Assembly: GCF_003575965.1 (NCBI RefSeq)
Contig: NZ_QWJJ01000002.1
Span: 124,001 to 188,000 of the forward strand
Source of the DNA: Pseudooceanicola sediminis
Lineage (GTDB): Bacteria > Pseudomonadota > Alphaproteobacteria > Rhodobacterales > Rhodobacteraceae
DNA length: 64,000 nt
Direction of reading: 5' to 3'
Shown one piece after another: positions 3,389-62,779 of the stretch (positions within the stretch are counted from its first letter, which is position 1; each line of letters opens with the position of its first letter). A program made the translations under genes and the position numbers. Below the pieces are notes generated by a model. It saw only the letters and a program-made list of their open reading frames with translations. It was not told where the DNA came from and searched no databases.

Positions 3389-3982
3389 TCAGAGCGCGAC
3401 CCCGACATCCGCCATCGCCGCAAGCGCCCGGTCACGCGACCCGTCGAAATCGATGGCGCGGCACAGATCAGGGCGGACAGTTACGTCGAAACCCAGCTGC
3501 GCGGCGTCCACCGCGCTGTAATTGACGCAGAAATCCAGCGCCAGCCCGACCATGGTCAGTTGGGTGATGCCGCGCGATTTCAGGTACCCCTCCAGGCCCG
3601 TCGGGGTGGTGTGGTCATTTTCAAAGAACGCCGAATAGCTGTCGATCGCCGGGTTGAACCCCTTGCGGATGATCAGATCCGCGCGGTCCACGGCAAGGTC
3701 GGGGTGAAAGCTGGCCCCGTCCGAGCCCTGGATGCAGTGATCGGGCCAGAGCACCTGCGGGCCGTAGGGCATGTCGATCACGCTCATCTCGGCGGCCCCG
3801 TCGTGCGAGGAGGCAAAGGAGGAATGACCCGCCGGGTGCCAGTCCTGCGTCAGGATCACCGCGTCGAATTCGGTCATCAGCGCGTTGACCTGCGGCACGA
3901 TCAGGTCGCCTTCGGCCACGGCAAGGGCGCCCCCCGGGCAAAAGTCTTTCTGAATGTCGATGACGATGAGAGCGTTGCCCAT
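3389..3982 (-). CDS. pncA: nicotinamidase (isochorismatase-like hydrolase)
   Basis: It hydrolyses nicotinamide to nicotinate and ammonia, feeding pncB. The 197-residue protein has the catalytic Asp in IDIQKDF, the metal-binding QDWHPAGHSSF segment, WPDHCIQGS, the catalytic Lys in IRKGF and the nucleophilic Cys in GLALDFCV. These give the Asp-Lys-Cys triad in the expected order. The start (MGNALIVIDIQ) puts the first strand directly at the N terminus; the frame stays open further upstream but that stretch has no recognisable content. It converges on the AraC gene with four bases between stops. Confidence 0.95.
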   Translation of the reverse strand: MGNALIVIDIQKDFCPGGALAVAEGDLIVPQVNALMTEFDAVILTQDWHPAGHSSFASSHDGAAEMSVIDMPYGPQVLWPDHCIQGSDGASFHPDLAVDRADLIIRKGFNPAIDSYSAFFENDHTTPTGLEGYLKSRGITQLTMVGLALDFCVNYSAVDAAQLGFDVTVRPDLCRAIDFDGSRDRALAAMADVGVAL

Positions 3983-49037: not shown

Positions 49038-49622
49038 ATGCCGGACAAGCTCTCCATCATCGTCGTCGAACCGGATCGCGACCGGGCGCTGTTGATCGTC
49101 GACAGCCTGCGCGGTGCTGGCGATTACGACATCCATGTCATTTCCGAGGTGACGGGCCTTGCCCGCTCGATCCGCGCCCACAATCCCGACATGGTGCTGG
49201 TCGATATCGCCAACCCCTCGCGCGATACGATCGAGGAGCTGACCCTCGCCTCCGGCCCTCTTGAACGGCCCGTCGCCATGTTCGTCGACCAGTCCGACGT
49301 CGGCCTGACCCGCACCGCGATCGAGGCTGGCGTCTCCGCCTATGTTGTCGACGGGCTCAAGGCAGATCGCGTCAAACCCATCCTCGATGCCGCCGTCGCC
49401 CGCTTCAACATGTTTCAGCGGATGCGCACCGAACTCGCCGCCACGAAAAAGGCGTTGGAAGAACGCAAGGTCATCGACCGCGCCAAGGGCGTGCTGATGA
49501 AGGCGCGCGGCGTCAACGAAGACGAAGCCTATGCCCTGCTGCGCAAGACCGCGATGGATCAGGGCCGCCGGGTCGCGGACGTGGCGCAGGCGCTCGTGAC
49601 CACCGCGGGCCTGCTGGGATGA
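49038..49622 (+). CDS. nasT: ANTAR-domain antiterminator NasT
   Basis: NasT is an RNA-binding response-regulator-like protein that prevents transcription termination in nitrate-assimilation leaders. The 194-residue product has a pseudo-receiver domain (SIIVVEPDRDRALLIVDSL; Asp56 in LVDIANPS sits at the phospho-acceptor position) and a C-terminal ANTAR domain from about residue 130: ALEERKVIDRAKGVLMKARG, then DEAYALLRKTAMDQGRRVADVAQ. ATG 49038 has CGAGG upstream. It overlaps nasS by four bases. In the studied systems it is held inactive by NasS when nitrate is absent. Confidence 0.93.
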   Translation: MPDKLSIIVVEPDRDRALLIVDSLRGAGDYDIHVISEVTGLARSIRAHNPDMVLVDIANPSRDTIEELTLASGPLERPVAMFVDQSDVGLTRTAIEAGVSAYVVDGLKADRVKPILDAAVARFNMFQRMRTELAATKKALEERKVIDRAKGVLMKARGVNEDEAYALLRKTAMDQGRRVADVAQALVTTAGLLG

Positions 49623-50800
49623 AGGGGGCCACTCTCTCTGTCGGCTATATCGGCCTCGTGGACGCCGCGCCGCTGATCGTGGCGCAAGAGATGGGCTTCG
49701 CTGCCGAAGAGGGGCTGGACCTCGACCTGATCAAGGCCCCCTCCTGGTCCTCGCTGCGCGACATGCTGGTGTTCGGCCGGGTCGAGGCGGCGCATATGCT
49801 GGCGCCCGTCCCCGTGGCCTCCGCGCTCGGGCTCGGCGGCAACGGCGGGCCGATCTCGGCGGTGTCGGTGCTGTCGGTGAACGGCAATGTCATCGGCGTC
49901 AGCAACGATCTGGCACGGCGGCTGCGCGATGTTGGCCATGACTTCGCGTTCAACGATGCCCGCAATGCCGGTCTGGCGCTGATCGCCGCCAAGCGCCCCG
50001 ACAAACCGCTGCGCATCGGCGTGCCCTTCCCCTTCTCGATGCACGCCGAACTGCTGTACTACTGGCTGTCTGCCGTCGGTCTGCCCGCGCCGCAAGGCGT
50101 TCTGATCCGCACCATCCCCCCGGCGCTGATGGCCGATGCCATGGCCGCCGGGGAAATCGACGCCTTTTGCGTGGGCGAACCCTGGGGCTCCATCACCGTG
50201 GAAAATGCCGCCGGTGAACTGCTGCTGCCGACCCGTGCAATCTGGGCCTTTGCCCCGGAAAAGGTGCTGGCCGTGCGCACCGACTGGGCCGAAACCGAAG
50301 GCGCCCTGCTGGGCCGCCTGATCCGGTCGGTCTGGCGTGCCGGGCGCTGGCTGTCCGATCCGGCCTCCAAGAGCCTCGCCGCCGAGATCCTCTCGGCAGG
50401 CAATTACCTCGACCTCCCCGCCGAGGTGCTGGACCGTGCCCTCTCGGGTCGGCTGATCATCGGCCCTCGCGGCGACATGCGCGAGGTGCCGGGGTTTGTC
50501 GGCTTTCACAAGGGCACCGCCACATTCCCCTGGCGCAGTCAGGCGGAATGGATTGCGCTGCAACTGGCTGCGCGCACCGGGCTGGACCGCGATCAGGCCC
50601 TGCGTGCCGGGCGCGCCTCGTTCCGATCCGACCTGCACCGCGCTGCCCTGGCAGGAACCGAGGCCGACCTGCCCGGCGCGTCGATGAAGATCGAGGGCGC
50701 GATTCGCTCCGAAACGTCCATCGCCTCTGCCTCCGGTCACCTGTCCCTGCTGCCTGATACGTTCTTCGATGGCCGTGTTTTTGAGCCGACAGCCGAGTGA
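49619..50800 (+). CDS. nasS: cytoplasmic nitrate/nitrite sensor NasS
   Basis: NasS binds NasT and releases it on nitrate or nitrite binding. The 393-residue protein belongs to the NrtA/CmpA periplasmic-binding family: it starts ATLSVGYIGLVDAAPLIVAQEMGF, has GRVEAAHMLAPVPVA and the family's IDAFCVGEPWGSITV. It has no signal peptide, as expected for the cytoplasmic sensor. That and its tight coupling to nasT distinguish it from the transporter protein NrtA encoded next. The stop codon lies inside an inverted repeat (50797-50821). Confidence 0.92.
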   Translation: MKGATLSVGYIGLVDAAPLIVAQEMGFAAEEGLDLDLIKAPSWSSLRDMLVFGRVEAAHMLAPVPVASALGLGGNGGPISAVSVLSVNGNVIGVSNDLARRLRDVGHDFAFNDARNAGLALIAAKRPDKPLRIGVPFPFSMHAELLYYWLSAVGLPAPQGVLIRTIPPALMADAMAAGEIDAFCVGEPWGSITVENAAGELLLPTRAIWAFAPEKVLAVRTDWAETEGALLGRLIRSVWRAGRWLSDPASKSLAAEILSAGNYLDLPAEVLDRALSGRLIIGPRGDMREVPGFVGFHKGTATFPWRSQAEWIALQLAARTGLDRDQALRAGRASFRSDLHRAALAGTEADLPGASMKIEGAIRSETSIASASGHLSLLPDTFFDGRVFEPTAE

Positions 50801-50821
50801 CGCACAAAAAAATCGCGTCAC
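50797..50821 (+). promoter_or_regulatory. 7-bp inverted repeat at the nasS stop codon
   Basis: GTGACGC, an A-rich 11-base spacer, GCGTCAC. It overlaps the stop codon of nasS and lies upstream of the nrt leader. It may be a weak terminator of nasTS or an operator for the nrt promoter. Confidence 0.4.
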
Positions 50822-50925
50822 TTTGCCCCCGGAATGGGCAAATCGGGTCTTTGCCTGCGTTTTTGACGCCGCGCATCATCTTCTCTTTGCTTTTGTGGCC
50901 CGGCCCCGTCTAGATCAAGGGCGTA

Positions 50926-50945
50926 GGTAGGCAATGGCGCCCACC
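50926..50945 (+). promoter_or_regulatory. ANTAR leader hairpin P1 (loop AATGGC)
   Basis: GGTAGGC and GCCCACC pair with one A-C mismatch around a six-base loop AATGGC (50933-50938). A at loop position 1 and G at position 4 fit the known ANTAR RNA target. It is the first of two hairpins in the nrt operon leader. GGGCG/CGCCC (50919-50923 with 50938-50942) is an alternative pairing. Confidence 0.7.
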
Positions 50946-50977
50946 GAACCGAATTCTCCCACCGATTGGGTACGACT

Positions 50978-50991
50978 GAGCAAAGCCGCTC
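50978..50991 (+). promoter_or_regulatory. ANTAR leader hairpin P2 (loop AAAGCC)
   Basis: GAGC and GCTC close a six-base loop AAAGCC (50982-50987), again with A at position 1 and G at position 4. A U-G pair can extend the stem. The 3' arm and loop lie inside the terminator 5' arm, so P2 and the terminator are mutually exclusive. The linker from P1 is 32 bases. Confidence 0.7.
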
Positions 50992-51037
50992 GACTCTCTG
51001 ATGCACAGGCATCGGGGTAGGTCGATGTGGCTTTTTT
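50982..51037 (+). terminator. NasT-controlled intrinsic terminator of the nrt operon leader
   Basis: The 5' arm at 50982-50994 pairs with the 3' arm at 51021-51034 (ten main pairs, one mismatch and one bulged base), ending in GGC followed by TTTTTT. An inner hairpin GATGC-ACAG-GCATC (51000-51013) caps it. It ends 49 bases before nrtA and should stop transcription unless NasT stabilises P2. Confidence 0.8.
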
Positions 51038-51086
51038 CGTGTTTGCCCGGGCGGTTGTGAACCCCGGGCCATAAACGGGGTAACCT

Positions 51087-52454
51087 ATGAAGAACTTGAT
51101 CCTTTCGCTTGCTGCCACCACCGCTCTGGTCGCACCGGCCCATGCCGAAATGCTCGACCTCGAAAAGGACGTGCTCACCTTCGGCTTTATCAAGCTGACG
51201 GACATGGCCCCCCTCGCCGTCGCCTATGAACAGGGCTTTTTCGATGACGAGGGCCTGTTCGTCACGCTTGAGGCGCAGGCCAACTGGAAGGTGCTGCTCG
51301 ATGGCGTCATCGGCGGTCAGCTCGACGGCGCGCACATGCTGGCAGGCCAACCCCTGGCCGCCACCATCGGTTACGGCACCGAGGCGCATATCGTCACCCC
51401 CTTCTCGATGGACCTGAACGGCAACGGCATCACGGTCAGCAACGAGGTCTGGGACATGATGAAACCGCAGCTGGACACCGGCGCCGATGGCAAGGTGGTG
51501 CACCCGATCTCGGCCTCCACCCTGCAACCCGTGATCGAGAAATTCGCGGCCGAAGGCAAACCCTTCAACATGGGCATGGTCTTTCCCGTCTCGACCCATA
51601 ACTACGAACTGCGCTACTGGCTGGCCGCCGGCGGGATCGAACCGGGCTATTACAGCCCTGAAAACGTCTCGGGTCAGATCAACGCCCAGGCCTATCTCTC
51701 CGTCACCCCGCCACCGCAGATGCCCGCCACGCTCGAGGCCGGCACCATCTCGGGCTATTGCGTCGGTGAACCCTGGAACCAGCAGGCCGTCTTCAAGGGC
51801 ATCGGCGTGCCGGTGATCACCGATTACGAGATCTGGAAGAACAACCCGGAAAAGGTCTTCGGCATGTCCGCGGAATTCACCGATGCCAACCCCAACACCA
51901 CCCTCGCCATCACCAAGGCGCTGATCCGTGCCGCCATCTGGCTGGACGAGAACGACAACGCCAACCGCCCCGAAGCGGTCGAGATCCTGTCGCGCCCCGA
52001 ATACGTCGGCGCGGATGCCGAGGTGATCGCCAACTCGATGACCGGCACTTTTGAGTATGAAAAGGGCGACGCGCGCGAGGTGCCCGATTTCAACGTCTTC
52101 TTCCGCTACAACGCCACCTACCCCTTCTACTCCGATGCGGTCTGGTACCTGACCCAGATGCGCCGATGGGGCCAGATTGCCGACGCCAAGCCCGACAGCT
52201 GGTACGACGAGGTTGCCCGCTCCGTCTACAAGCCCGAGATCTACCTTCAGGCCGCCCGCATGCTGGTCGACGAAGGATTGGCGGACGAGGCCGACTTCCC
52301 CTGGGACAGCGATGGCTACAAGGCCCCGACTCCGGCGGCAGATGTGATCGACGGCATCAGCTATGACGGCAAGACCCCGAACGCCTACCTCGAGTCCCTG
52401 CCCATCGGCCTCAAGGGCGACCAAAAGGTCGTCGGCACCGAAATCCAGGGGTGA
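51087..52454 (+). CDS. nrtA: nitrate ABC transporter substrate-binding protein
   Basis: NrtA captures nitrate (and perhaps nitrite) in the periplasm. The 455-residue protein has a Sec-type signal peptide ([20 protein letters not shown]). The CmpA/NrtA fold follows: [26 protein letters not shown], then [15 protein letters not shown] and [16 protein letters not shown]. It differs from NasS in length, the signal peptide and an extended C terminus. It is the first gene after the NasT-type leader and is followed by two stable hairpins before nrtB. Confidence 0.94.
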
Positions 52455-52656: not shown

Positions 52657-53739
52657 ATGACAACAGTCGATCCAGATTTTGCACGTGTCCAGGCCAGGGC
52701 GGCCCGCCGCGCACGGCTTTTCACCCGCATCAACACCGCCGATAAATGGCTCAACGTCCTCGGTCTCGCCTGGGTCACCCCGATCCTCAAGGCCCTGGCA
52801 GGCGACAATCCCCGCGCCCAACTTGGCGATATCTGGCGGCTTCTGATGGTGCCCCTGCTGGCCATCGTGGTCTTCCTGTCGCTCTGGGGCTATCTCGCAC
52901 CCAAGGTGCAGACCTCGCTCGGCGCGATCCCCGGCCCTGCCGCCGTCTGGTCCGAGGCCGTGAACCTGAACCATGAGGCGCAGCTCACAGCGCAAAAAAG
53001 GCAGGATTTTCAAGACCGTATAGATAAACGCAACGCCCGTCTGATCGAACAGGGCAAGGCGGATCAGGTCAAGGACATCCCCTATACCGGCGCGCCCAGC
53101 TACTACGAACAGATCTGGACCTCGATCAAGACGGTGTTCTTCGGCTTCCTCGTCGCCTCGGCCATCGCCATCCCGCTCGGTATCGCTGCGGGTCTGTCGG
53201 TCACCGCCAACGCAGCCCTCAACCCGTTGATTCAAATCTTCAAACCGGTCTCGCCCCTGGCATGGCTGCCAATCGTCACGATGGTCGTCTCTGCCGTCTA
53301 CGCCACCAACGACGGCATGTTTTCGAAATCCTTCCTGGTTTCGGCAATCACCGTCACGCTCTGCTCTCTCTGGCCCACCCTGATCAACACCTCCCTCGGC
53401 GTTGCCTCCATCGACAAGGATCTGATCTCGGTCTCCAGAGTGTTGAAAATGAACACTTATACCAAGATCACCAAGCTGGTCCTGCCCTCGGCCCTGCCGC
53501 TGATCTTCACGGGATTGCGCCTGTCCCTCGGGGTCGGCTGGATGGTCCTGATCGCGGCCGAGATGCTGGCCCAGAACCCCGGCCTTGGCAAATTCGTCTG
53601 GGACGAATTCCAGAACGGCTCCTCCTCCTCCCTCGCGCGGATCATGGTCGCCGTCTTCACCATCGGGATCATCGGCTTCCTGCTCGACCGGGTCATGTAC
53701 GCCCTCCAGTCCCTCTTCACCTTCTCGAACAACAGGTAA
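52657..53739 (+). CDS. nrtB: nitrate ABC transporter permease
   Basis: NrtB is the transmembrane subunit of the nitrate importer. The 360-residue protein has an N-terminal hydrophobic segment (LLMVPLLAIVVFLSLWGYLAP) and then a BPD_transp_1 domain with about five TM helices: TVFFGFLVASAIAIPLGIAAG, PLAWLPIVTMVVSAVYA, and the ATPase-coupling EAA-type region around LISVSRVLKMNTYTKITKLVLPSALP. The long N-terminal region (1-150) precedes the conserved permease core. It is followed by nrtCD after five bases. Confidence 0.94.
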   Translation: MTTVDPDFARVQARAARRARLFTRINTADKWLNVLGLAWVTPILKALAGDNPRAQLGDIWRLLMVPLLAIVVFLSLWGYLAPKVQTSLGAIPGPAAVWSEAVNLNHEAQLTAQKRQDFQDRIDKRNARLIEQGKADQVKDIPYTGAPSYYEQIWTSIKTVFFGFLVASAIAIPLGIAAGLSVTANAALNPLIQIFKPVSPLAWLPIVTMVVSAVYATNDGMFSKSFLVSAITVTLCSLWPTLINTSLGVASIDKDLISVSRVLKMNTYTKITKLVLPSALPLIFTGLRLSLGVGWMVLIAAEMLAQNPGLGKFVWDEFQNGSSSSLARIMVAVFTIGIIGFLLDRVMYALQSLFTFSNNR

Positions 53740-53744
53740 GCACC

Positions 53745-55433
53745 ATGGCAATCCTCAGTTTTGACAATGTGAACAAGGGCTTCGGGACCGGCCTGTCCCG
53801 TGCCGAGGTGCTGCGCGGCATCTCCCTCGACGTGCAGGAGGGCGAGTTCGTCGCCATCCTCGGCTTCTCTGGCTCGGGCAAATCCACCCTGATGAACCTG
53901 ATCGCCGGGCTGGAATTTCCCGACAGCGGGACGGTCCGTTTCAAGGGCGCGCCGATCACCGGCCCCGGCCCCGAACGCGGTCTGGTGTTTCAAAGCTACT
54001 CGCTGATGCCCTGGCTGACCGTGATGGGCAATGTCATGCTGGCCATCGACGCCGCCAACCCGCGCATGGCGAAGAAAGACAAACAGAAAAAAGCGTTGCA
54101 TTACATTGCGATGGTCGGCCTGTCCCATGCTGCCACGCGCCGCCCTGCCGAACTTTCTGGCGGGATGCGCCAGCGGGTTTCGGTTGCCCGCGCCCTGGCG
54201 CTGAACCCCGAAATGCTGCTGCTGGACGAACCCCTTTCGGCGCTGGATGCCCTGACCCGCGCCAACCTCGCGGATGAGATCCTCGCGATCTGGGAACGGG
54301 ACCGCAAGACCTGCATCCTGATCACCAATGACGTGGACGAGGCGATCCTGCTGGCCGACCGCATCGTGCCACTGAATCCCGATGGCACCCTGGGCGATGC
54401 AATCCCCGTCACCCTGCCGCGCCCGCGCGACCGCAGCGAAATGAACCATGACGAAGGCTTCAAGGCCCTGCGCGCCCGCGTCACCACCTACCTGATGGAC
54501 GTCGGCATCCAGTCCCGGATCGAAGGCACACGCAGCCTGCCCAACGTCCAGCCAATCCACAGTCTGCCTGCCGCCGTCGTCGATGCGCAAAAGGGCATGA
54601 TCGACCAGAAATTCCTGTCTTATGAACAGCTTCACAAGGTCTATCCGACGCCCAAAGGCCCCCTGACCGTGGTTGAGGATTTCAATCTCAAGCTCAATCG
54701 CGGCGAATTCGTTTCGCTGATCGGGCACTCGGGTTGCGGCAAATCCACCGTGCTGACGATGACGGCGGGCCTCAACGCGATCTCGAAAGGGGTTATCAAG
54801 CTGGATGGCTACGACGTGAAAGGCGCCGACCCCGAACGCGCCGTCGTCTTTCAGTCGCCCAACCTTTTCCCCTGGCTGACCGCACGCGAAAACGTCGCCA
54901 TCGGCGTCGACAAGGTCTACCCCAAGGCCAGCCGGGCCGAGCGGCAGGATGTCATCGAATACTACCTCGAACGCGTCGGCATGGCCGATGCGATGGACCG
55001 GCTGGCGGACTCGATGTCGAACGGCATGAAACAGCGCGTCGGCATCGCCCGCGCCTTCGCCCTGTCGCCCAAACTGCTGCTGCTCGATGAACCCTTCGGG
55101 ATGCTCGACAGCCTGACGCGGTGGGAGTTGCAGGAGGTGCTGATGGAGGTCTGGAGCCGCACCAAGGTCACCGCCGTCTGCGTCACCCATGACGTGGACG
55201 AGGCGATCCTGCTGGCCGACCGGGTGGTGATGATGACCAACGGCCCGCAGGCCACCATCGGCAAGATCACCGAGGTCAAGCTGCCCCGCCCGCGCACCCG
55301 CAAGGCGCTGCTGGAGCACCCCGATTACTATCTCTACCGCGAACAGGTTCTCAGCTTTCTCGAAGAATATGAACATGGCGCAAAGGGCAAATCCGCCACC
55401 CAGGATGACACAGCAAAGCAGGAGGCCGCGTGA
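53745..55433 (+). CDS. nrtC: fused nitrate ABC transporter ATP-binding protein (NrtC-NrtD type)
   Basis: One 562-residue polypeptide carries two ABC ATPase domains. Domain 1 has Walker A GFSGSGKST (residues 40-48), LSGGMRQRV, and at the H-loop position ITNDVDEA, with Asn195 in place of the usual His. Domain 2 has Walker A GHSGCGKST (327-335), MSNGMKQRVG and THDVDEA (His482). It lacks the NrtA-like sensory domain of cyanobacterial NrtC. Both domains would pair with the NrtB dimer. It overlaps the next gene by one base. The frame is open far upstream into nrtB and is not the start. Confidence 0.9.
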   Translation: MAILSFDNVNKGFGTGLSRAEVLRGISLDVQEGEFVAILGFSGSGKSTLMNLIAGLEFPDSGTVRFKGAPITGPGPERGLVFQSYSLMPWLTVMGNVMLAIDAANPRMAKKDKQKKALHYIAMVGLSHAATRRPAELSGGMRQRVSVARALALNPEMLLLDEPLSALDALTRANLADEILAIWERDRKTCILITNDVDEAILLADRIVPLNPDGTLGDAIPVTLPRPRDRSEMNHDEGFKALRARVTTYLMDVGIQSRIEGTRSLPNVQPIHSLPAAVVDAQKGMIDQKFLSYEQLHKVYPTPKGPLTVVEDFNLKLNRGEFVSLIGHSGCGKSTVLTMTAGLNAISKGVIKLDGYDVKGADPERAVVFQSPNLFPWLTARENVAIGVDKVYPKASRAERQDVIEYYLERVGMADAMDRLADSMSNGMKQRVGIARAFALSPKLLLLDEPFGMLDSLTRWELQEVLMEVWSRTKVTAVCVTHDVDEAILLADRVVMMTNGPQATIGKITEVKLPRPRTRKALLEHPDYYLYREQVLSFLEEYEHGAKGKSATQDDTAKQEAA

Positions 55434-56374
55434 TGGACGCCGCACTCGATCTTCCGGTCAAGACCTTCATAGAAGTCGCAGAAATCTGGGTGCCCCAGGG
55501 GGATCGGCTGGTTCTGGGCGAGGGGCATTATGGCACCCTCGACAGCTTTGCCGAAGCCTCGCGTCACGCCAGCTTCGCCCGTGGCGAGGGCCTGCCCGGC
55601 AAGGCCTGGGCCGAACAACGTCCCATCGTGCTGAAGGAATTCGACGGTTCGTACTTTCAACGCACCGAGGCCGCGCAGGAGGCCGGCCTGACCGCCGCCG
55701 TCGCCGTGCCGATCTTCAGCGGCAAGACCCTGAAGGCGGTTCTGGTCGTGCTCTGCGCCAATGACAACATCCGCACCGGCGCCATCGAGGTCTGGAAGGA
55801 AAACGATGGCGTGCTGATGCTGGACGATGGCTATTACGGCGCGGCCAAACATTTCGAGTGGGTCTCGCAGCACACGCATTTTCCGCGTGGGCAGGGCCTG
55901 CCGGGGGGCGTCTGGGCCTCGCAGACGCCGATGCTGATGCGCGATCTCGGCTCGGGCTATCGCTTCATCCGCGCTGACAGTGCGGGCAAGGCGGGGCTGA
56001 CCACCGGCCTCGGCCTGCCGATCCCCGTGCCGGGGGGCGCGACCTATGTTCTGGCGTTGCTCTCGGCCCTCGGCACCCCCATCGCCCGCCGGTTCGAACT
56101 GTGGGATGCCAGATCTGCCCGCGTCGGCAAGGCCGGGAAATCTGCGGTGCTGGCGGATGGTATCTGCGCCCGCGACGGCGCGCTCTGGGTCGGCGAAACA
56201 GAAGAGCCACGTCGCGCTACCCCATGGCAGGGCCTGATCGGCCGCGTCCTTGCGACCGGTCTGCCCGCTGTCGAAACGGGAAATGCCGCACTGACGCAGG
56301 GGTATGACACCGCCGTCGCCCTGCCCATCCATCTGGATGGCGAGGTCGCCCACATCATCGCCTGGTATTGCTGA
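55433..56374 (+). CDS. triple GAF-like repeat protein of the nitrate operon
   Basis: A 313-residue protein with no recognised name. It consists of three degenerate repeats of about 95 residues (about 16-110, 118-213, 221-313). Repeats 1 and 2 share RGEGLPG/RGQGLPG, a WA..Q.P pair and GLT..(V/L)..P; repeat 3 retains GLIGRVLATGLPAV and TAVALPIHLDGEVAHII. This resembles GAF domains in shape. GGAGG precedes the ATG, which overlaps the nrtCD stop. There is no DNA-binding or enzymatic domain. It may sense a ligand such as nitrate, nitrite or redox state. Confidence 0.8.
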   Translation: MDAALDLPVKTFIEVAEIWVPQGDRLVLGEGHYGTLDSFAEASRHASFARGEGLPGKAWAEQRPIVLKEFDGSYFQRTEAAQEAGLTAAVAVPIFSGKTLKAVLVVLCANDNIRTGAIEVWKENDGVLMLDDGYYGAAKHFEWVSQHTHFPRGQGLPGGVWASQTPMLMRDLGSGYRFIRADSAGKAGLTTGLGLPIPVPGGATYVLALLSALGTPIARRFELWDARSARVGKAGKSAVLADGICARDGALWVGETEEPRRATPWQGLIGRVLATGLPAVETGNAALTQGYDTAVALPIHLDGEVAHIIAWYC

Positions 56375-56389
56375 AAGGAAGGACGGAAC

Positions 56390-58822
56390 ATGCAGAAACT
56401 GGTCATAATCGGTGCTGGCATGGCCTCTGGCCGTGTCCTCGAACATCTGCGCGACACCGCGCCCGACGCCTTCGACATCACTGTTTTCAACGCAGAACCG
56501 CGCGGCAACTACAACCGCATCATGCTGTCGCCCGTGCTGTCGGGCGAAAAGACATATGCGGAAATCATCACCCATGACGATACCTGGTATGCCGACAACA
56601 ACGTCACCTGCCGCTTTGGCGAAAAGGTCATCGCGGTGGACCGCGACCGCCGCGTCGTCATCGGTGAGAAGGGCGAGGTGCCCTATGACAAGCTGATCTT
56701 CGGCACCGGCTCCGCCCCCTTCATCATCCCGCTGCCCGGCCACGACAAGAAGGGCGTCGTCGCCTACCGCGATCTTGAGGACACCAACGCCATGGTCGCG
56801 GCGGCAGCCAAGCCCGGTGCCCGCGCTGTCGTCATCGGCGGCGGTCTGCTGGGGCTTGAGGCCGCCGCCGGTCTGCGCCTGCGCGGCATGGAGGTGACGG
56901 TGCTGCACATCGCGACGCACCTGATGGAACGTCAGTTGGACGAGGCCGCCGGATACCTGCTGCGCCGCGATCTGGAAAAGCGCGGCATCAACGTGATCCT
57001 GCAGGCTTCGACGCAGGAAATCACCGGCGGAGATGCGGCCGAGGCGGTGCACCTTGCCGATGGCACCGTGTTGCCCTGCGATATCGTCGTCATGGCCGTC
57101 GGCATCCGCCCCGCCGTGCAACTGGCGCGCGATTGCGGCCTGACCTGCGGTCGCGCGATCGAGGTCGACGCCCAGATGCAGACCTCCGACCCCGATGTCT
57201 ATGCGGTGGGCGAATGCGTCGAATTCAACGGCAATCTCTTCGGCCTTGTCGCGCCGCTCTATGATCAGGCCAAGGTGCTGGCGAAAACCCTTCTGGGGCA
57301 GGCTGACGCCTTCAAGCTGCGTGAGCTGTCGACCAAGCTCAAGGTCACCGGCTGCGATCTCTTCTCTGCCGGGGATTTCGCAGGTGGCGACGGGCGCGAG
57401 GATATCGTGTTCCGCGATCCCGGCCGTGGCGTCTACAAGCGCCTGGTGATCGAGGATGATCAGCTGATCGGCGCAGTCATGTACGGCGATACGGGCGATG
57501 CCAACTGGTTCTTCGGGCTGATCAAGGACGGCACCGACATTTCGGAAATGCGCGACAGCCTGATCTTTGGCCCCGCGTTTCAAGGGGGTGCCCAGGCGGA
57601 CCCTATGGCAGCCGTTGCAGCCTTACCGCCTGAGGCGGAGATTTGTGGCTGTAACGGCGTTTGCAAGGGGGCCATCACCGCCGCGATCGAGGGCGGCGCG
57701 ACCGACCTCGGCGCGATCCGGGCCACCACCAAGGCCAGCGCCTCCTGCGGGACATGCACCGGGCTGGTCGAACAGGTGCTGTCGGTCACGCTGGGCGACG
57801 ATTTCGTCAGGCCCGCCGCGCAACCGGTCTGCAAATGCACCGATCTGACCCACGAAGACGTGCGTCGCCTGATCAAGTCGCAAGAACTGAAATCCCAGCC
57901 CGCCGTCTGGCAGGAACTGGGCTGGAAAACCCCGAACGGCTGCCACGTGTGCCGTCCGGCGATCAACTATTACCTGCTGGCCGACTGGCCGCTTGAATAT
58001 CAGGACGACCTGCAATCGCGCTTTGTCAACGAACGCAACCACGCCAATATCCAGAAGGACGGCACCTATTCCGTCATGCCGCGCATGTGGGGCGGCATCA
58101 CCACCCCGGATGAGCTGCGCGCGATTGCCGATGCCGCCGACAAGTTCAAGGTGCCCACCGTCAAGGTCACCGGCGGTCAGCGCATCGACCTGCTCGGCGT
58201 CAAGAAAGAGGATCTGACCGACATCTGGTACGACCTCAATCAGGCGGGCATGGTCTCCGGGCACGCCTATTCCAAGGGGCTGCGCACTGTCAAAACCTGC
58301 GTCGGCACGGATCACTGCCGCTTCGGTACGCAGGATTCCACCGGCCTCGGCATCAAGCTTGAGAAAAAGCTCTGGGGGTCGTGGACGCCGCACAAGGTCA
58401 AGCTGGGCGTCTCGGGGTGTCCGCGCAACTGCGCCGAGGCGACGTGCAAGGACGTCGGCATCATCTGCGTCGACAGCGGCTATCAGGTCAGCGTCGCCGG
58501 CGCGGCGGGCATGGACGTCAAGGAAACCGAACGCCTGCATGACGCGCGAACCGAGGAGGAGGCCATCGAATGGGTCGCCGCCTTCGTCCAGCTCTATCGC
58601 GAAAACGGCAAGTATCTGGATCGCGCCTACAAATGGGTCGCCAAGGTCAGCCTCGACTGGGTCAAGGAAACGCTCTCCGACGATGCCACCCGCGCCGCGC
58701 TGAACGAACGGTTCGAAATCTCGCAATCCGTCTATCGCAAGGATCCCTGGGCAGATCACAACCAGACCCGCGCCGCGCTCTACCAACCGCTTGCCGATCT
58801 CACGCAGGAGGCCGCAGAATGA
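56390..58822 (+). CDS. nirB: assimilatory nitrite reductase, NAD(P)H, large subunit
   Basis: NirB reduces nitrite to ammonium with electrons from NAD(P)H. The 810-residue protein has an N-terminal FAD domain (VIIGAGMASGRVLEHL), a second Rossmann (VVIGGGLLGLEAAAGLRL), two BFD-like [2Fe-2S] segments (CGCNGVC...CGTC; CKC...CHVC) and the sirohaem-[4Fe-4S] site (CVGTDHC and GCPRNC). The length is normal. It follows the GAF-like gene by 15 bases and overlaps nirD. Sirohaem synthesis genes are not in the window. Confidence 0.97.
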   Translation: MQKLVIIGAGMASGRVLEHLRDTAPDAFDITVFNAEPRGNYNRIMLSPVLSGEKTYAEIITHDDTWYADNNVTCRFGEKVIAVDRDRRVVIGEKGEVPYDKLIFGTGSAPFIIPLPGHDKKGVVAYRDLEDTNAMVAAAAKPGARAVVIGGGLLGLEAAAGLRLRGMEVTVLHIATHLMERQLDEAAGYLLRRDLEKRGINVILQASTQEITGGDAAEAVHLADGTVLPCDIVVMAVGIRPAVQLARDCGLTCGRAIEVDAQMQTSDPDVYAVGECVEFNGNLFGLVAPLYDQAKVLAKTLLGQADAFKLRELSTKLKVTGCDLFSAGDFAGGDGREDIVFRDPGRGVYKRLVIEDDQLIGAVMYGDTGDANWFFGLIKDGTDISEMRDSLIFGPAFQGGAQADPMAAVAALPPEAEICGCNGVCKGAITAAIEGGATDLGAIRATTKASASCGTCTGLVEQVLSVTLGDDFVRPAAQPVCKCTDLTHEDVRRLIKSQELKSQPAVWQELGWKTPNGCHVCRPAINYYLLADWPLEYQDDLQSRFVNERNHANIQKDGTYSVMPRMWGGITTPDELRAIADAADKFKVPTVKVTGGQRIDLLGVKKEDLTDIWYDLNQAGMVSGHAYSKGLRTVKTCVGTDHCRFGTQDSTGLGIKLEKKLWGSWTPHKVKLGVSGCPRNCAEATCKDVGIICVDSGYQVSVAGAAGMDVKETERLHDARTEEEAIEWVAAFVQLYRENGKYLDRAYKWVAKVSLDWVKETLSDDATRAALNERFEISQSVYRKDPWADHNQTRAALYQPLADLTQEAAE

Positions 58823-59163
58823 ACACCCCTATGAGCTGGATCGACATCGGTCATATCGACGACATCCCCCTGCGCGGATCGCGCGTGGTGAAAACGCGCG
58901 CGGGCTGCCTTGCCGTGTTTCGCACGACCGAAGCGCAGGTCTTTGCCGTCGGCAACACCTGCCCGCACAAGGGTGGCCCCCTGTCCGAGGGCATCGTGCA
59001 CGGCACCTCCGTCACCTGCCCGCTGCACAACATGATCTTCGATCTGGAAACCGGGCAGGCACAGGGGATGGATACCGGCCAGATCCCGACATACCCGATC
59101 CGCATCGAGGCCGGCCGCCTTTTGCTGGACGCTGCCAGTGTCAGCTCGCGGAGCGCCGCCTGA
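58819..59163 (+). CDS. nirD: nitrite reductase small subunit (Rieske-type)
   Basis: NirD is the small partner of NirB. The 114-residue protein has a Rieske fold with the two cluster-binding motifs CPHKGGP and CPLHN, and begins MSWIDIGHIDDIPLRGSRVV. ATG 58819 overlaps the nirB stop and the gene overlaps nasA by one base, so the three are translationally coupled. Confidence 0.95.
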   Translation: MNTPMSWIDIGHIDDIPLRGSRVVKTRAGCLAVFRTTEAQVFAVGNTCPHKGGPLSEGIVHGTSVTCPLHNMIFDLETGQAQGMDTGQIPTYPIRIEAGRLLLDAASVSSRSAA

Positions 59164-61799
59164 TGACGCCCCCCGGCCCGCCGGAAACACGTTCGACCTG
59201 CGCCTATTGCGGGGTCGGGTGCGGGGTCCTGCTGCGCGCGGATACCGCAGGCGGGCTGGCGGTGCGCGGGGATCCCGATCATCCGTCCAACTTCGGGCGC
59301 CTCTGTTCCAAGGGCACCAACCTGGGCGAAACCGTCGATCTTGACGGGCGCCTGACGCATCCTCTCTACCACGGCACGCAGATCGACTGGGACAGTGCCC
59401 TGCAAACCGTGGCCGACAAGTTCAGCGCGGCAATCGCGGAACATGGACCCGACAGCGTGGCTTTCTACGTCTCAGGTCAACTGCTGACCGAAGACTATTA
59501 TATCGCCAACAAACTGATGAAGGGGTTTATCGGGTCCGCCAATATCGACACGAATTCAAGGCTTTGCATGGCGTCGACGGTGGCAGGGCACAAACGCGCC
59601 TTCGGCACCGACACCGTCCCCGGCACGTACGAGGATCTTGAGCAGGCCGATCTGGTGGTCCTCACCGGCTCCAACCTCGCCTGGTGTCACCCGGTGCTGT
59701 ATCAGCGCATCGTCGCGGCCAAGGCGGCACGGCCGAGCATGAAGATCGTCGTCATCGACCCGCGCCGCACTGCCACCTGCGACGGCGCCGACATGCACCT
59801 GCCACTGAAACCCGGCAGCGACGTGGCGCTGTTCAACGGACTGCTGGCAGCCATCGCGCAGCAGGGCGCGCGCGATGATACCTTCGCCCAGCATGTCGAC
59901 GGCTTCGACCCCGCGCTCGCTGCGGCCCGCGCCTGCGACCTCGGGGTCACCGGCCTCGATCCGGCACTGATGCAGCGGTTCTTCGACCTGTGGATCGGCA
60001 CGGAAAAGGTCGTCACCGTCTTCTCTCAGGGCGTCAACCAAAGTTCTTCCGGCTCGGACAAGGTCAATGCCATCCTGAACTGCCACCTTGCCACAGGGCG
60101 CATAGGGCGCCCCGGCATGGGGCCGTTTTCCGTCACCGGTCAGCCCAATGCTATGGGGGGACGTGAGGTCGGCGGGCTGGCCAATACCCTCGCCTGCCAC
60201 ATGGACATCGGAAACCCCGATCACCGGCAGGCTCTGCGCCAGTTCTGGGATGCCCGGGCGATGCCGGAAACCGCTGGCCTCAAGGCGGTCGAGATGTTTC
60301 AGGCCGTTGCCTCGGGGCAGATCAAGGCGCTCTGGATCATGCACACCAACCCCGCCGTCACCATGCCCGACGCCGACGCGGTCAAGGCCGCCATCGCAGG
60401 GTGTGACTTCGTTGTCTGCTCCGACATCACCCCCCAGACCGACACGGTGCGGCTGGCTCACATGCTGCTGCCGGCCGCTGCATGGGGCGAAAAATCCGGC
60501 ACTGTCACCAACTCCGACCGCACGATCAGCCGCCAGCGCACGGTTCTGCCCGCCCCGGGACAGGCCCGCCCCGACTGGGCGCAGCTGGCCGAGGTCGGGC
60601 GCCGCATGGGTTGGCATGCGGCCTTCGACTATACCACCCCGTCCGAGATCTTTCGCGAATATGCTGCACTTTCGGGGATCGCGGGCGGCTTTGGACTCGA
60701 TTTCGACATCTCCGGCCTCGCGGACATTTCAGATGCCGCCTATGACGCCCTTGCCCCAACGCGCTGGCCTGTCAGCGCGGGCAGGACCGGCGGGCGCTTT
60801 TTCGGTGACGGTCGGTTCTTCACACCGTCCGGGCGGGCACGGATGCTGGCGCTGACGCATCGCGCGCCCGCTGCCCGACTGCAACCGCGCTTTCCCCTGC
60901 GCCTGAATACCGGGCGCATCCGCGACCAGTGGCACACGATGACACGCACCGCGAAATCGCCGCGCCTGTCCTCGCACCTCGCCGAACCCTTTCTCGAACT
61001 GCACCCCAGTGACGCCGCCGTCCGCGGCATTACCCCTTCGGCCCTGGTCGAGGTCACCACCCCCCATGGCCGCGCCATCCTGCGCGCCCTGATCACCGAT
61101 CGCGTGCAACCGGGCGATATCTTTGCCCCCATGCACTGGACAGGTGAAAACGCCCCCTCGGCCCGCATCGACACGCTGATCGCCCCGGTCACCGATCCGA
61201 TTTCGGGCCAACCGGAGAGCAAGGCCGCCGCCGCCCGCATCGCCCCGTTCCCCGCCCGCTGGTACGCCTTCGCCATATCCTCCGACAGCTTTACCCCCAC
61301 CGCCGACTATTGGGCGCGCGCCAGAACTGCCCAAGGCTGGCGCGCCGAAATCGCAGGCACCGCTTTACCCGAGAACTGGGAGGCGTATGCTGCAACCCTG
61401 TTCGGGATCGAGGGAGGCGACATGCAAAGTCTTTCAGACGCACGGCGCGGCACCTTCCGCGCGGCATTTCACGACGCAGGCCGCCTTCGGGCCGCGCTTT
61501 TCGTTTCACCCACGCCTGTTGCCGTGATGCGCGATTACCTGTCCGGGCTGACGGGCACGGTGGCCCCCCTTGCCCTGTCGGGGCGCATCGGCGCGGATCA
61601 GCCCGACCCCGGCCCGACCCTGTGTTCGTGCTTTGGCGTGGGGGTGAACACCATCCTGACCGCCATCGCGGACAAGGGCCTGCGGTCGGTCGCCGAAATC
61701 GGGGCCGCCCTGCAAGCAGGCACCAACTGCGGCTCCTGCCGGCCTGAACTGGCTGACCTGCTGACCCGCACCGCGACATCGCGCGAGGCGGCAGAATGA
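59163..61799 (+). CDS. nasA: assimilatory nitrate reductase catalytic subunit
   Basis: NasA is the molybdopterin enzyme that reduces nitrate to nitrite in the cytoplasm. The 878-residue protein has an N-terminal [4Fe-4S] site (CAYCGVGCGVL, then GRLCSKG), the molybdopterin oxidoreductase core (SNLAWCHPVLYQRIVAAK; INQSSSGSDK-like; GQPNAMGGREVGGLANTL) and molydopterin dinucleotide-binding end (RIRDQWHTMTRTAKSPRL). The C terminus carries a BFD-like cluster (CSCFGVG ... CGSC). There is no NasC-like electron-transfer subunit in this window. It overlaps nirD and the next gene. Confidence 0.96.
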   Translation: MTPPGPPETRSTCAYCGVGCGVLLRADTAGGLAVRGDPDHPSNFGRLCSKGTNLGETVDLDGRLTHPLYHGTQIDWDSALQTVADKFSAAIAEHGPDSVAFYVSGQLLTEDYYIANKLMKGFIGSANIDTNSRLCMASTVAGHKRAFGTDTVPGTYEDLEQADLVVLTGSNLAWCHPVLYQRIVAAKAARPSMKIVVIDPRRTATCDGADMHLPLKPGSDVALFNGLLAAIAQQGARDDTFAQHVDGFDPALAAARACDLGVTGLDPALMQRFFDLWIGTEKVVTVFSQGVNQSSSGSDKVNAILNCHLATGRIGRPGMGPFSVTGQPNAMGGREVGGLANTLACHMDIGNPDHRQALRQFWDARAMPETAGLKAVEMFQAVASGQIKALWIMHTNPAVTMPDADAVKAAIAGCDFVVCSDITPQTDTVRLAHMLLPAAAWGEKSGTVTNSDRTISRQRTVLPAPGQARPDWAQLAEVGRRMGWHAAFDYTTPSEIFREYAALSGIAGGFGLDFDISGLADISDAAYDALAPTRWPVSAGRTGGRFFGDGRFFTPSGRARMLALTHRAPAARLQPRFPLRLNTGRIRDQWHTMTRTAKSPRLSSHLAEPFLELHPSDAAVRGITPSALVEVTTPHGRAILRALITDRVQPGDIFAPMHWTGENAPSARIDTLIAPVTDPISGQPESKAAAARIAPFPARWYAFAISSDSFTPTADYWARARTAQGWRAEIAGTALPENWEAYAATLFGIEGGDMQSLSDARRGTFRAAFHDAGRLRAALFVSPTPVAVMRDYLSGLTGTVAPLALSGRIGADQPDPGPTLCSCFGVGVNTILTAIADKGLRSVAEIGAALQAGTNCGSCRPELADLLTRTATSREAAE

Positions 61800-62779
61800 C
61801 CGCCCTTGCCCCCCATGTGCGCACGCTCGGCCGCGGGCCCGGCCGGTCGCGATCCCTGACCTACGAGGAGGCTTTCGATGCCATGCGCATCATCCTCGAC
61901 GGCCAAGGCGACCCTGAGGCGATAGGGGCGCTGCTGATGTTGCTGCGGATGAAGGGCGAGGTACCGGAGGAAATCGCCGGATTCGTCGCTGCGGCCCGTG
62001 CCACGCTGCCCCAGATCACGCCACCCGCGCTTGACTGGCCCTCCTACGCCGCCGGGCGCAGCCGCGGCTTGCCGTTCTTCCTGCTGTCGGCGCGGCTGGT
62101 TGCGCGGTCTGGTCACACGGTGCTGATGCACGGCTGGAACTCCGAACACCACATGGCGACCAGCGCGTCAGTGCGTCAGGCGTTGCCCTTTGCCGGCATC
62201 GCGACCGCGCCCTCCGTTGCAGAGGCGGGCAGGTTGCTTGGCCGTGACGGTATCGCCTACCTGCCGCTTGAATCCTTTCAACCCGGCCTGCTCGACCTCT
62301 TGCGCCTGCGCGACAAGCTGGGCGTGCGCTCCTGCGTCAATACGGTTCTGCGCGTCCTCAATCCTGCACATGCCGCCGCCAGCGTGCAGGGGGTGTTTCA
62401 CCCGCCCTACCGCGATTTGCAGGCCGATGCGGGCAAACTTCTGGGACAAAACAGCCTGACAGTGATCAAGGGCGGAGGCGGCGAATTCGAACGGAACCCC
62501 GCCAAGTCCATCGCCTTGTTCGGTCTGCGCGACGCCGCCGCCTTCGATGGCACCGCCCCGGCGCTACTGGATGAAACCACCCGGCTCAATCAGGGATGGA
62601 GCGATCCCGCCCTTCTGGCAGGCCTCTGGTCAGGCGACTGGCACGACCCCTTTGCCGAGGCGATCGTCATCGGCACCGCGGAACTGGCCCTCGCCACGCT
62701 GGGGGAACCGACCCCGGGCGCAACCGCGCGGCGCCTCTGGTCAGACCGCGCGAACCAACTGGCCGATCTGCGGGACTGA
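61796..62779 (+). CDS. TrpD2/YbiB-like glycosyltransferase-family protein
   Basis: A 327-residue protein resembling anthranilate phosphoribosyltransferase (TrpD): the N-terminal helical domain (SLTYEEAFDAMRIILDGQGDPEAIGALLMLLRMKGE) is followed by a Rossmann-like domain (VLRVLNPAHAAASVQGVFH, then SLTVIKGGGGEFERNP). This matches the TrpD2/YbiB subgroup, which binds nucleic acid and lacks TrpD activity in E. coli. It overlaps nasA by four bases. The link to nitrate assimilation is not explained. Confidence 0.8.
   Translation: MTALAPHVRTLGRGPGRSRSLTYEEAFDAMRIILDGQGDPEAIGALLMLLRMKGEVPEEIAGFVAAARATLPQITPPALDWPSYAAGRSRGLPFFLLSARLVARSGHTVLMHGWNSEHHMATSASVRQALPFAGIATAPSVAEAGRLLGRDGIAYLPLESFQPGLLDLLRLRDKLGVRSCVNTVLRVLNPAHAAASVQGVFHPPYRDLQADAGKLLGQNSLTVIKGGGGEFERNPAKSIALFGLRDAAAFDGTAPALLDETTRLNQGWSDPALLAGLWSGDWHDPFAEAIVIGTAELALATLGEPTPGATARRLWSDRANQLADLRD

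Follow-up and report, generated by a model that had tools for sequence, protein, structure and literature searches.

Gene setting of the leader

The window, the whole 64 000-nucleotide stretch of Pseudooceanicola sediminis DNA that was analysed, carries a nitrate assimilation locus in which nasT and nasS stand before the nrt-nir-nas operon (table 1; bare coordinates are window positions). Pfam bears out the assignment of both regulatory genes that had been made from the sequence alone. The receiver-like part of NasT (residues 7–109) matches PF00072 at 9.1e-5, which is below the Pfam cut-off, and nasT is the one ANTAR gene found in the genome. It overlaps nasS by four bases. The closest named NasS belongs to Pseudooceanicola sp. 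HF7 (85% identity). The hallmark of a NasS–NasT system, an ANTAR-type nasT and an NrtA-like nasS adjoining nitrate assimilation genes, is thus present. At the far end of the operon, a gene with glycosyl-transferase-3 family domains (61796–62779) overlaps the 3' end of the nitrate reductase gene. A sigma-70-type promoter was looked for in 50780–51090 and not found. A candidate sigma-54 site upstream of P1 was rejected, because the consensus matched in only 2/128 cases.

Table 1. Features of the nas locus and of the second leader. All positions lie in the window unless another contig is named.
Feature	Position	Strand	Description and evidence
nasT	49038–49622	+	receiver-like part and ANTAR domain; Pfam PF03861, 2.4e-22
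nasS	49619–50800	+	NrtA-like nitrate/nitrite sensor; Pfam PF13379 (NMT1_2), 3.2e-65; named by family and position
P1 hairpin	50926–50945	+	GGTAGGC-AATGGC-GCCCACC; hexaloop A1 = 50933, G4 = 50936
Middle hairpin	50958–50970	+	CCCA-CCGAT-TGGG, in the linker; G50964 is the fourth base after CCC
P2 (antiterminator) hairpin	50978–50991	+	GAGC-AAAGCC-GCTC; A1 = 50982, G4 = 50985
Intrinsic terminator	50982–51034; six T 51032–51037	+	−33.0 kcal/mol, z = −6.5, 0/200 shuffles as good
GC-rich hairpin	51045–51069	+	GCCCGGG/CCCGGGC, between terminator and nrtA; sequence
nrtA	51087–52454	+	first structural gene of the controlled operon; Pfam PF13379, 1.1e-92
nrtB, nrtC, GAF protein, nirB, nirD, molybdopterin nitrate reductase	52657–61799	+	open reading frames, Pfam; named by family and order
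GAF-domain protein gene	55430–56374		within the operon, in the nrtC/nirB interval; Pfam
cysG leader	G000:C8:24931–25006 (another contig of the same genome)		directly before cysG (siroheme synthase); model R1, 9.8e-12
cysG-nirC-PP2C/kinase-cynS operon	L180 4432–9596 (G000:C8)		headed by the second NasT-type leader

Anatomy and folding of the leader

The interval between nasS and nrtA holds an RNA leader. The sequence-only reading had described two hairpins with six-base loops carrying A at position 1 and G at position 4, the second of which (P2) would lend its loop and 3' arm to the 5' arm of an intrinsic terminator ending in six Ts, 49 bases before nrtA. Each of these elements is found as described. 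The 5' arm of the terminator contains the P2 loop and the P2 3' arm and begins at A1 of that loop, so that P2 and the terminator are mutually exclusive. The T-run is followed after 49 nt by the nrtA ATG. Six of the seven positions of the P1 stem are paired; the mismatch (A50929/C50942) is internal and follows three closing pairs. P2 can be extended by a T-G wobble (50977/50992). The linker between them (50946–50977) measures the 32 nt expected and contains the letters of the proposed CCCA/TGGG hairpin, but this hairpin is not its best fold: an overlapping ACC-AATT/GATT-GGT structure (−5.3 kcal/mol) beats CCCA/TGGG (−3.9 kcal/mol) by 1.4 kcal/mol.

Folding energy sets the terminator apart from the other elements. 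The 132-nt stretch 50919–51050 has z = −4.07, and its best fold contains P1 and the terminator. P1 in isolation reaches z = −1.31, a value equalled or bettered by 20/200 shuffles. For the P2 stretch z is −0.63 (55/200 shuffles); its centroid is P2 and its best fold another structure. When the terminator is left out (50919–50995, z = −0.67), P1 is displaced in the best fold by a GGGCGT/GCGCCC pairing with a 12-nt loop. The small hairpins are energetically weak by themselves, and the case is therefore carried by comparison, not by energy. No Rfam family scores above its curated threshold in the window, the single match being at chance level (E 6.6) near the nrtA start. The tail that runs from the terminator to nrtA contains a hairpin of 5 bp or more in 106/134 leaders (mononucleotide shuffles: mean 59.0, maximum 72). 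The GC-rich hairpin of the window perhaps serves 5' end protection or ribosome access.

Conservation of P1, P2 and terminator

The comparison draws on the family of P. sediminis, where NasS matches occur in 81 of 198 genomes (30 loci and 40 stretches from these were used), and on 80 of 305 named NasS loci. The resulting set comprises 148 nasS-nrtA leaders, 140 of them distinct. P2 with a downstream T-run is present in 135 of the 140 distinct leaders (exceptions L133, L134, L135, L141 and L150), and the leader is accordingly real beyond chance. P1 was located in 131 of these 135 and is seen further upstream in three of the remaining four (L068, L072 and L110). Conservation of the loops in relatives had been set in advance as a test of the antitermination reading, and the P1 loop passes it: across those 102 of the 135 leaders that were aligned, it keeps G4 in 102/102 and A1 in 100/102. 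P2 also has G4 in 102/102, a figure that is no independent count, since the pattern used for picking leaders demanded it.

Pairing is likewise maintained. Among the 102 leaders, 85.7% of cells are paired as against 74.7% in shuffles. The covariation score is 0.330 against 0.143 in shuffles, with 0/500 as high and slid controls at or below 0.116. Both figures are favoured by design, because the structure was named from the very sequences counted. The overlap of P2 and terminator can be examined separately. The P2 loop and arm form 8.193 of 10 Watson–Crick pairs with their own terminator arm and 7.897 with swapped arms (maximum 8.015); for the 39 variant P2 loops the values are 7.359 and 6.746 (maximum 7.026). 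When G-U pairs are admitted, own arms still exceed swapped ones over all leaders (8.81 versus 8.65, maximum 8.71), and among the variant loops own arms do no better than swapped ones (8.44 versus 8.43).

ANTAR targets are defined as two hairpins with A1/G4 hexaloops and stems of 3 bp or more, connected by a variable linker for which no length is prescribed (PMC3369931). The leader has two such hairpins and such a linker, and part of its P2 also serves as 5' arm of the intrinsic terminator. The genome also encodes an ANTAR protein with the corresponding RNA-reading residues. In an alignment read by eye, with chain numbers taken as those of the paper plus two, R143, K150, E161, Y165 and M173 of NasT align with R142, K149, E160, Y164 and M172 of EutV, which hold G4 or plug the loop (the methionine plug being M172; PMC8934654). 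Two of three other RNA-contacting residues are not kept: NasT has D174 and G176 in place of EutV N173 and R175, which belong to a set of three residues whose joint change abolishes binding (PMC8934654).

A third hairpin in the long linker

The linker and its middle hairpin are the most distinctive part of the leader. Linkers of 25–35 nt are found in 78 of 88 parsed relatives, and the 32 nt of the window lie outside the lengths described for eut leaders (5–12 nt) and in an actinobacterial survey (2–25 nt); the linker comes within the described range only if the middle hairpin is counted as a site. Neighbouring hairpins would then stand 12 and 7 nt apart, approximately the spacing of EutV targets. 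Since EutV linkers are short and sensitive to length, the long linker needs explaining.

A hairpin with a loop of 6–8 nt is present in 130/135 linkers (dinucleotide shuffles: mean 61.9, maximum 73). The fourth base after the stem is G in 117/135 (shuffles: mean 15.7, maximum 24), which leaves 18 leaders without a middle hairpin of this G4 type, and 107/135 combine G4 with A or G at base 1 (shuffles: mean 8.7, maximum 14). The G4 type is found in 75 of 90 linker clusters, and 95 of the 102 aligned leaders carry the middle-loop G. Simply counting linker hairpins with stems of 4 bp or more had given poor separation (79/82 against a shuffle mean of 67.1 and maximum of 74) and was replaced by this loop-position test. 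The usual form is CCC-NNNGNNN-GGG. Among the 109 leaders with CCC/GGG, 93 have G at position 4. Position 1 is a purine in most (A in 64, G in 29), and positions 2 and 3 are variable. The register of this G is that of P1 and P2, as ANTAR proteins read it.

The loop itself is mostly of seven bases (or of five closed by a pair), rather than six. Bases 1 and 7 of seven-base loops can pair in 52/79 cases (shuffle mean 36.5, maximum 46), so that the loop may be of 5 nt. The inner pair occurs in 18/20 eight-base loops, equal to the shuffle maximum (mean 14.5, maximum 18), and in 6/10 six-base loops, within the shuffle range (mean 4.7, maximum 7). The best fold of the 80-nt core includes it in 85/109 leaders with CCC/GGG. 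Pairs outside CCC/GGG show no excess over shuffles, and the middle hairpin is absent from the RNAalifold prediction for the MAFFT alignment. Nine leaders (L024, L102, L118, L126, L127, L131, L136, L138 and L144) have a perfect A1/G4 hexaloop in this place. By eye, three others carry doubled middle hairpins, each keeping its G: L068 and L072, from close Celeribacter relatives, and L110, from an Aestuariivita metagenome-assembled genome. The comparison of leaders indicates that the family element is one of three hairpins rather than the usual two.

Leaders outside the family

NasT matches occur in 40/289 genomes of the class and 116/398 of the phylum, own family included. A simple descriptor, scanned without a control, finds a P1 candidate, P2 and terminator at 16 of 40 NasT loci of other families. 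Linkers of at most 7 nt occur at seven of these non-family loci (L251, L259, L260, L276, L277, L279 and one of two leaders in L282); linkers of 25–35 nt that hold a hairpin are seen in L244, in L250 and in the second L282 leader. Fifteen of the 18 candidate leaders show at least one A1/G4 hexaloop hairpin of at least 5 bp within 110 nt upstream of P2. Two such upstream hairpins are present in 2/18, L260 and L282 (300 shuffles: mean 0.01, maximum 1 leader; this control covers the upstream hairpins of the 18 candidates). These two leaders, with P2 loops at 3444 and 6197 in nasT orientation, therefore possess three tandem perfect A1/G4 hexaloop hairpins. L276 has three in tandem only when mismatches are allowed.

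A second leader before cysG

The same kind of leader is found a second time in the genome. A model built from the leaders, R1, matches the nas leader at 5.5e-18 (a training sequence) and then a site on another contig, directly before cysG (table 1); the next match is at 0.2. Three genes follow this cysG, for a transporter of the formate/nitrite family, a PP2C/kinase protein and cyanase. NirB requires siroheme as its cofactor.

R1 matches at 1e-4 in 65 of the 198 family genomes. Second sites also stand before cysG in G071, G088 and G092, and before a nirB-like gene in G161. Among the 30 best family cysG loci, five carry the leader (G000, G071, G092, G188 and G192; E 2.9e-13 to 7.3e-5), and the remaining 25 have none better than E 0.45 under default filters. 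By their coordinates, all five leader-bearing cysG genes lie outside the nas operon. Of the leaderless genes, 23 of 25 share the strand of nasS and lie 9.5–12.8 kb downstream of it; those of G032 and G159 lie on separate contigs of fragmented assemblies. The leader of G088, a sixth, precedes a cysG match that begins at residue 207. Judged by eye, five of the six cysG leaders have the G-type middle hairpin (G000, G071, G088, G092 and G192), and the linker of the G188 leader (L285), which lacks a G4-type middle hairpin, is a counter-example.

Searched class-wide at E 0.01, R1 matches 19/289 genomes, with nas-locus matches in five (own genome, L162, L163, L174 and L178); these five and the own cysG leader are the matches trusted. 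One R1 match (G149:C1:3139810) was rejected as lying inside an ABC-type coding stretch. L280, a locus from a different family within the phylum, has an ANTAR-type hairpin and terminator directly before cysG, beside nasT (about position 1515); no second A1/G4 hairpin of 5 bp was found upstream of P2 there. Because nasT is the sole ANTAR gene found and detached cysG genes carry the leader, siroheme supply is probably under the control of NasT in trans. A cofactor gene that has left its operon may thus stay under nitrate control, as the cysG leaders suggest, by means of an RNA switch of the same build placed before the gene.

Proposed mechanism and alternatives

The element in the window is most probably a NasT-controlled antitermination leader of the nrt-nir-nas operon, of a known kind (probability about 0.88). 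The proposal had been made from the sequence alone, and it gains support from loop conservation, from covariation of P2 with the terminator, from the NasT residues and from the precedent of Paracoccus denitrificans, in which the NasS–NasT complex dissociates on nitrate or nitrite and NasT binds nasA leader RNA (PMC3795266, PMC5424462). The predicted sequence of events is as follows. (i) Without nitrate, NasS would hold NasT, the terminator would absorb P2 and transcription would halt before nrtA. (ii) With nitrate or nitrite, NasT would be freed, grip the emerging hairpins and keep P2 folded. (iii) A folded P2 would block the terminator, and polymerase would read through. Binding of NasT to this RNA and the read-through itself are predicted by analogy with the systems described. 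It is very improbable that the leader instead attenuates constitutively or is just an ordinary terminator following nasS, in either case outside the control of NasT. Terminators between transcription units are common, but the loop letters that ANTAR proteins need are conserved, the P2 sequence overlaps and covaries with the terminator, cysG genes detached from the operon carry the same element, and there is experimental evidence for the P. denitrificans case (PMC3795266, PMC5424462).

The middle hairpin has an even chance of being a third ANTAR-type site and thus a putative NasT contact, a reading favoured by the fixed G of its loop and by the triple A1/G4 leaders elsewhere. A spacer that folds the linker and brings P1 and P2 near each other for one NasT dimer, making no contact with the protein, is a possible but more doubtful role. 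The varied stems and loop size leave room for it: very different hairpin sequences occupy the site in L059, L137, L142 and L147. The limits on EutV linkers point the same way, since native lengths are 5–12 nt, lengths of 3 or 14 nt make induction drastically worse (PMC3369931) and 20 additional nucleotides abolish antitermination (PMC8934654). Outside the family, L251, L259, L277, L279 and one L282 leader manage with linkers of 2–7 nt, and no further A1/G4 hairpin was found in them. A spacer, however, would have no need of a fixed G in its loop (93/109) next to variable bases 2 and 3, or of being doubled with the G retained. The existence outside the family of leaders whose middle hairpin is a perfect A1/G4 hexaloop (L260 and L282) raises the odds of a third site and lowers those of a spacer.

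It is unlikely that P2 has its real partner in the middle hairpin, the two forming a dual hairpin of short linker to which the outer P1 is an added recruitment site. Its distance of 7 nt from P2 resembles the linkers of 2–7 nt elsewhere, and the nine leaders with perfect middle hexaloops would suit such a pairing. So would P. denitrificans, where the essential hairpin HI (−137) is the second of three G4 hairpins, as placed on another strain with a presumed nasA start (PMC5424462). Against this, A1 and G4 of P1 are better kept (100/102 and 102/102) than the G of the middle loop (95/102).

Under the third-site reading, NasT of this family would read a triple-hairpin RNA as an assembly of more than one dimer. 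Taken jointly with nitrate control of detached cysG genes in trans by the same module, this is put forward tentatively, at somewhat less than even odds, which the triple A1/G4 leaders outside the family raise slightly. ANTAR antitermination is described as one dimer on two close hairpins with a critical linker length. A family of long-linker leaders with a conserved G-loop hairpin makes this rule testable, and bears on the reason why free NasT oligomerises.

Comparison with known systems

Neither a third hairpin in NasT leaders nor a NasT-controlled cysG leader was found in the open literature, as far as its available sections extend. Among the closest systems is that of P. denitrificans, which has the same regulators and places nasTS upstream of the assimilation genes. 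Its freed NasT is oligomeric, with approximately six monomers (PMC3795266). The publications describe hairpins HI at −137 and HII at −91 of the nasA leader (PMC5424462), with HI essential in vivo (PMC5424462), and mention a series of hairpins, data not shown (PMC3795266); a third NasT site is not described in their available sections. The nasA leader of P. denitrificans HAMBI_2443 (L313) contains three tandem G4 hairpins (AACGGC, AATGAT, GACGAT), like the family leaders; their loops precede the presumed start of nasA by 155, 130 and 107 nt. Although the strain is a different one, the published HI falls on the AATGAT hairpin, the second of the three, and HII just before the GAAAGCGC hairpin. 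Unlike the family leaders, L313 is without a U-run. The best fold predicted for L313 2777–2942 joins the region of the AATGAT hairpin to bases next to the presumed start codon. This fold hints that the leader may act by ribosome-site control, although transcriptional fusions in P. denitrificans respond to nitrate (PMC5424462).

Other ANTAR systems share parts of the design. Klebsiella NasR-nasF is also a nitrate-responsive ANTAR antitermination system of assimilation genes, but NasR is a one-component NIT-ANTAR sensor where the window encodes NasS–NasT (per PMC3795266, PMC3369931). NasT of Bradyrhizobium diazoefficiens likewise serves several transcripts: hairpins are predicted before nirA, coxS and others, and the nosR leader is said to be bound by NasT (PMC6759348). 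Its targets differ, and cysG is not named among them in the available part of that report (PMC6759348). Actinobacterial ANTAR RNAs have two A1/G4 hairpins and a linker, as here, but the curated linkers of 2–25 nt are shorter than that of the window (PMC8164766). The EutV targets of Enterococcus faecalis resemble the leader in their A1/G4 hexaloops, in a P2 lying within the terminator 5' arm and in recognition by an ANTAR dimer; they differ in having two hairpins and a length-sensitive linker of 5–12 nt, as against 32 nt holding a hairpin in the window leader (PMC3369931, PMC8934654).
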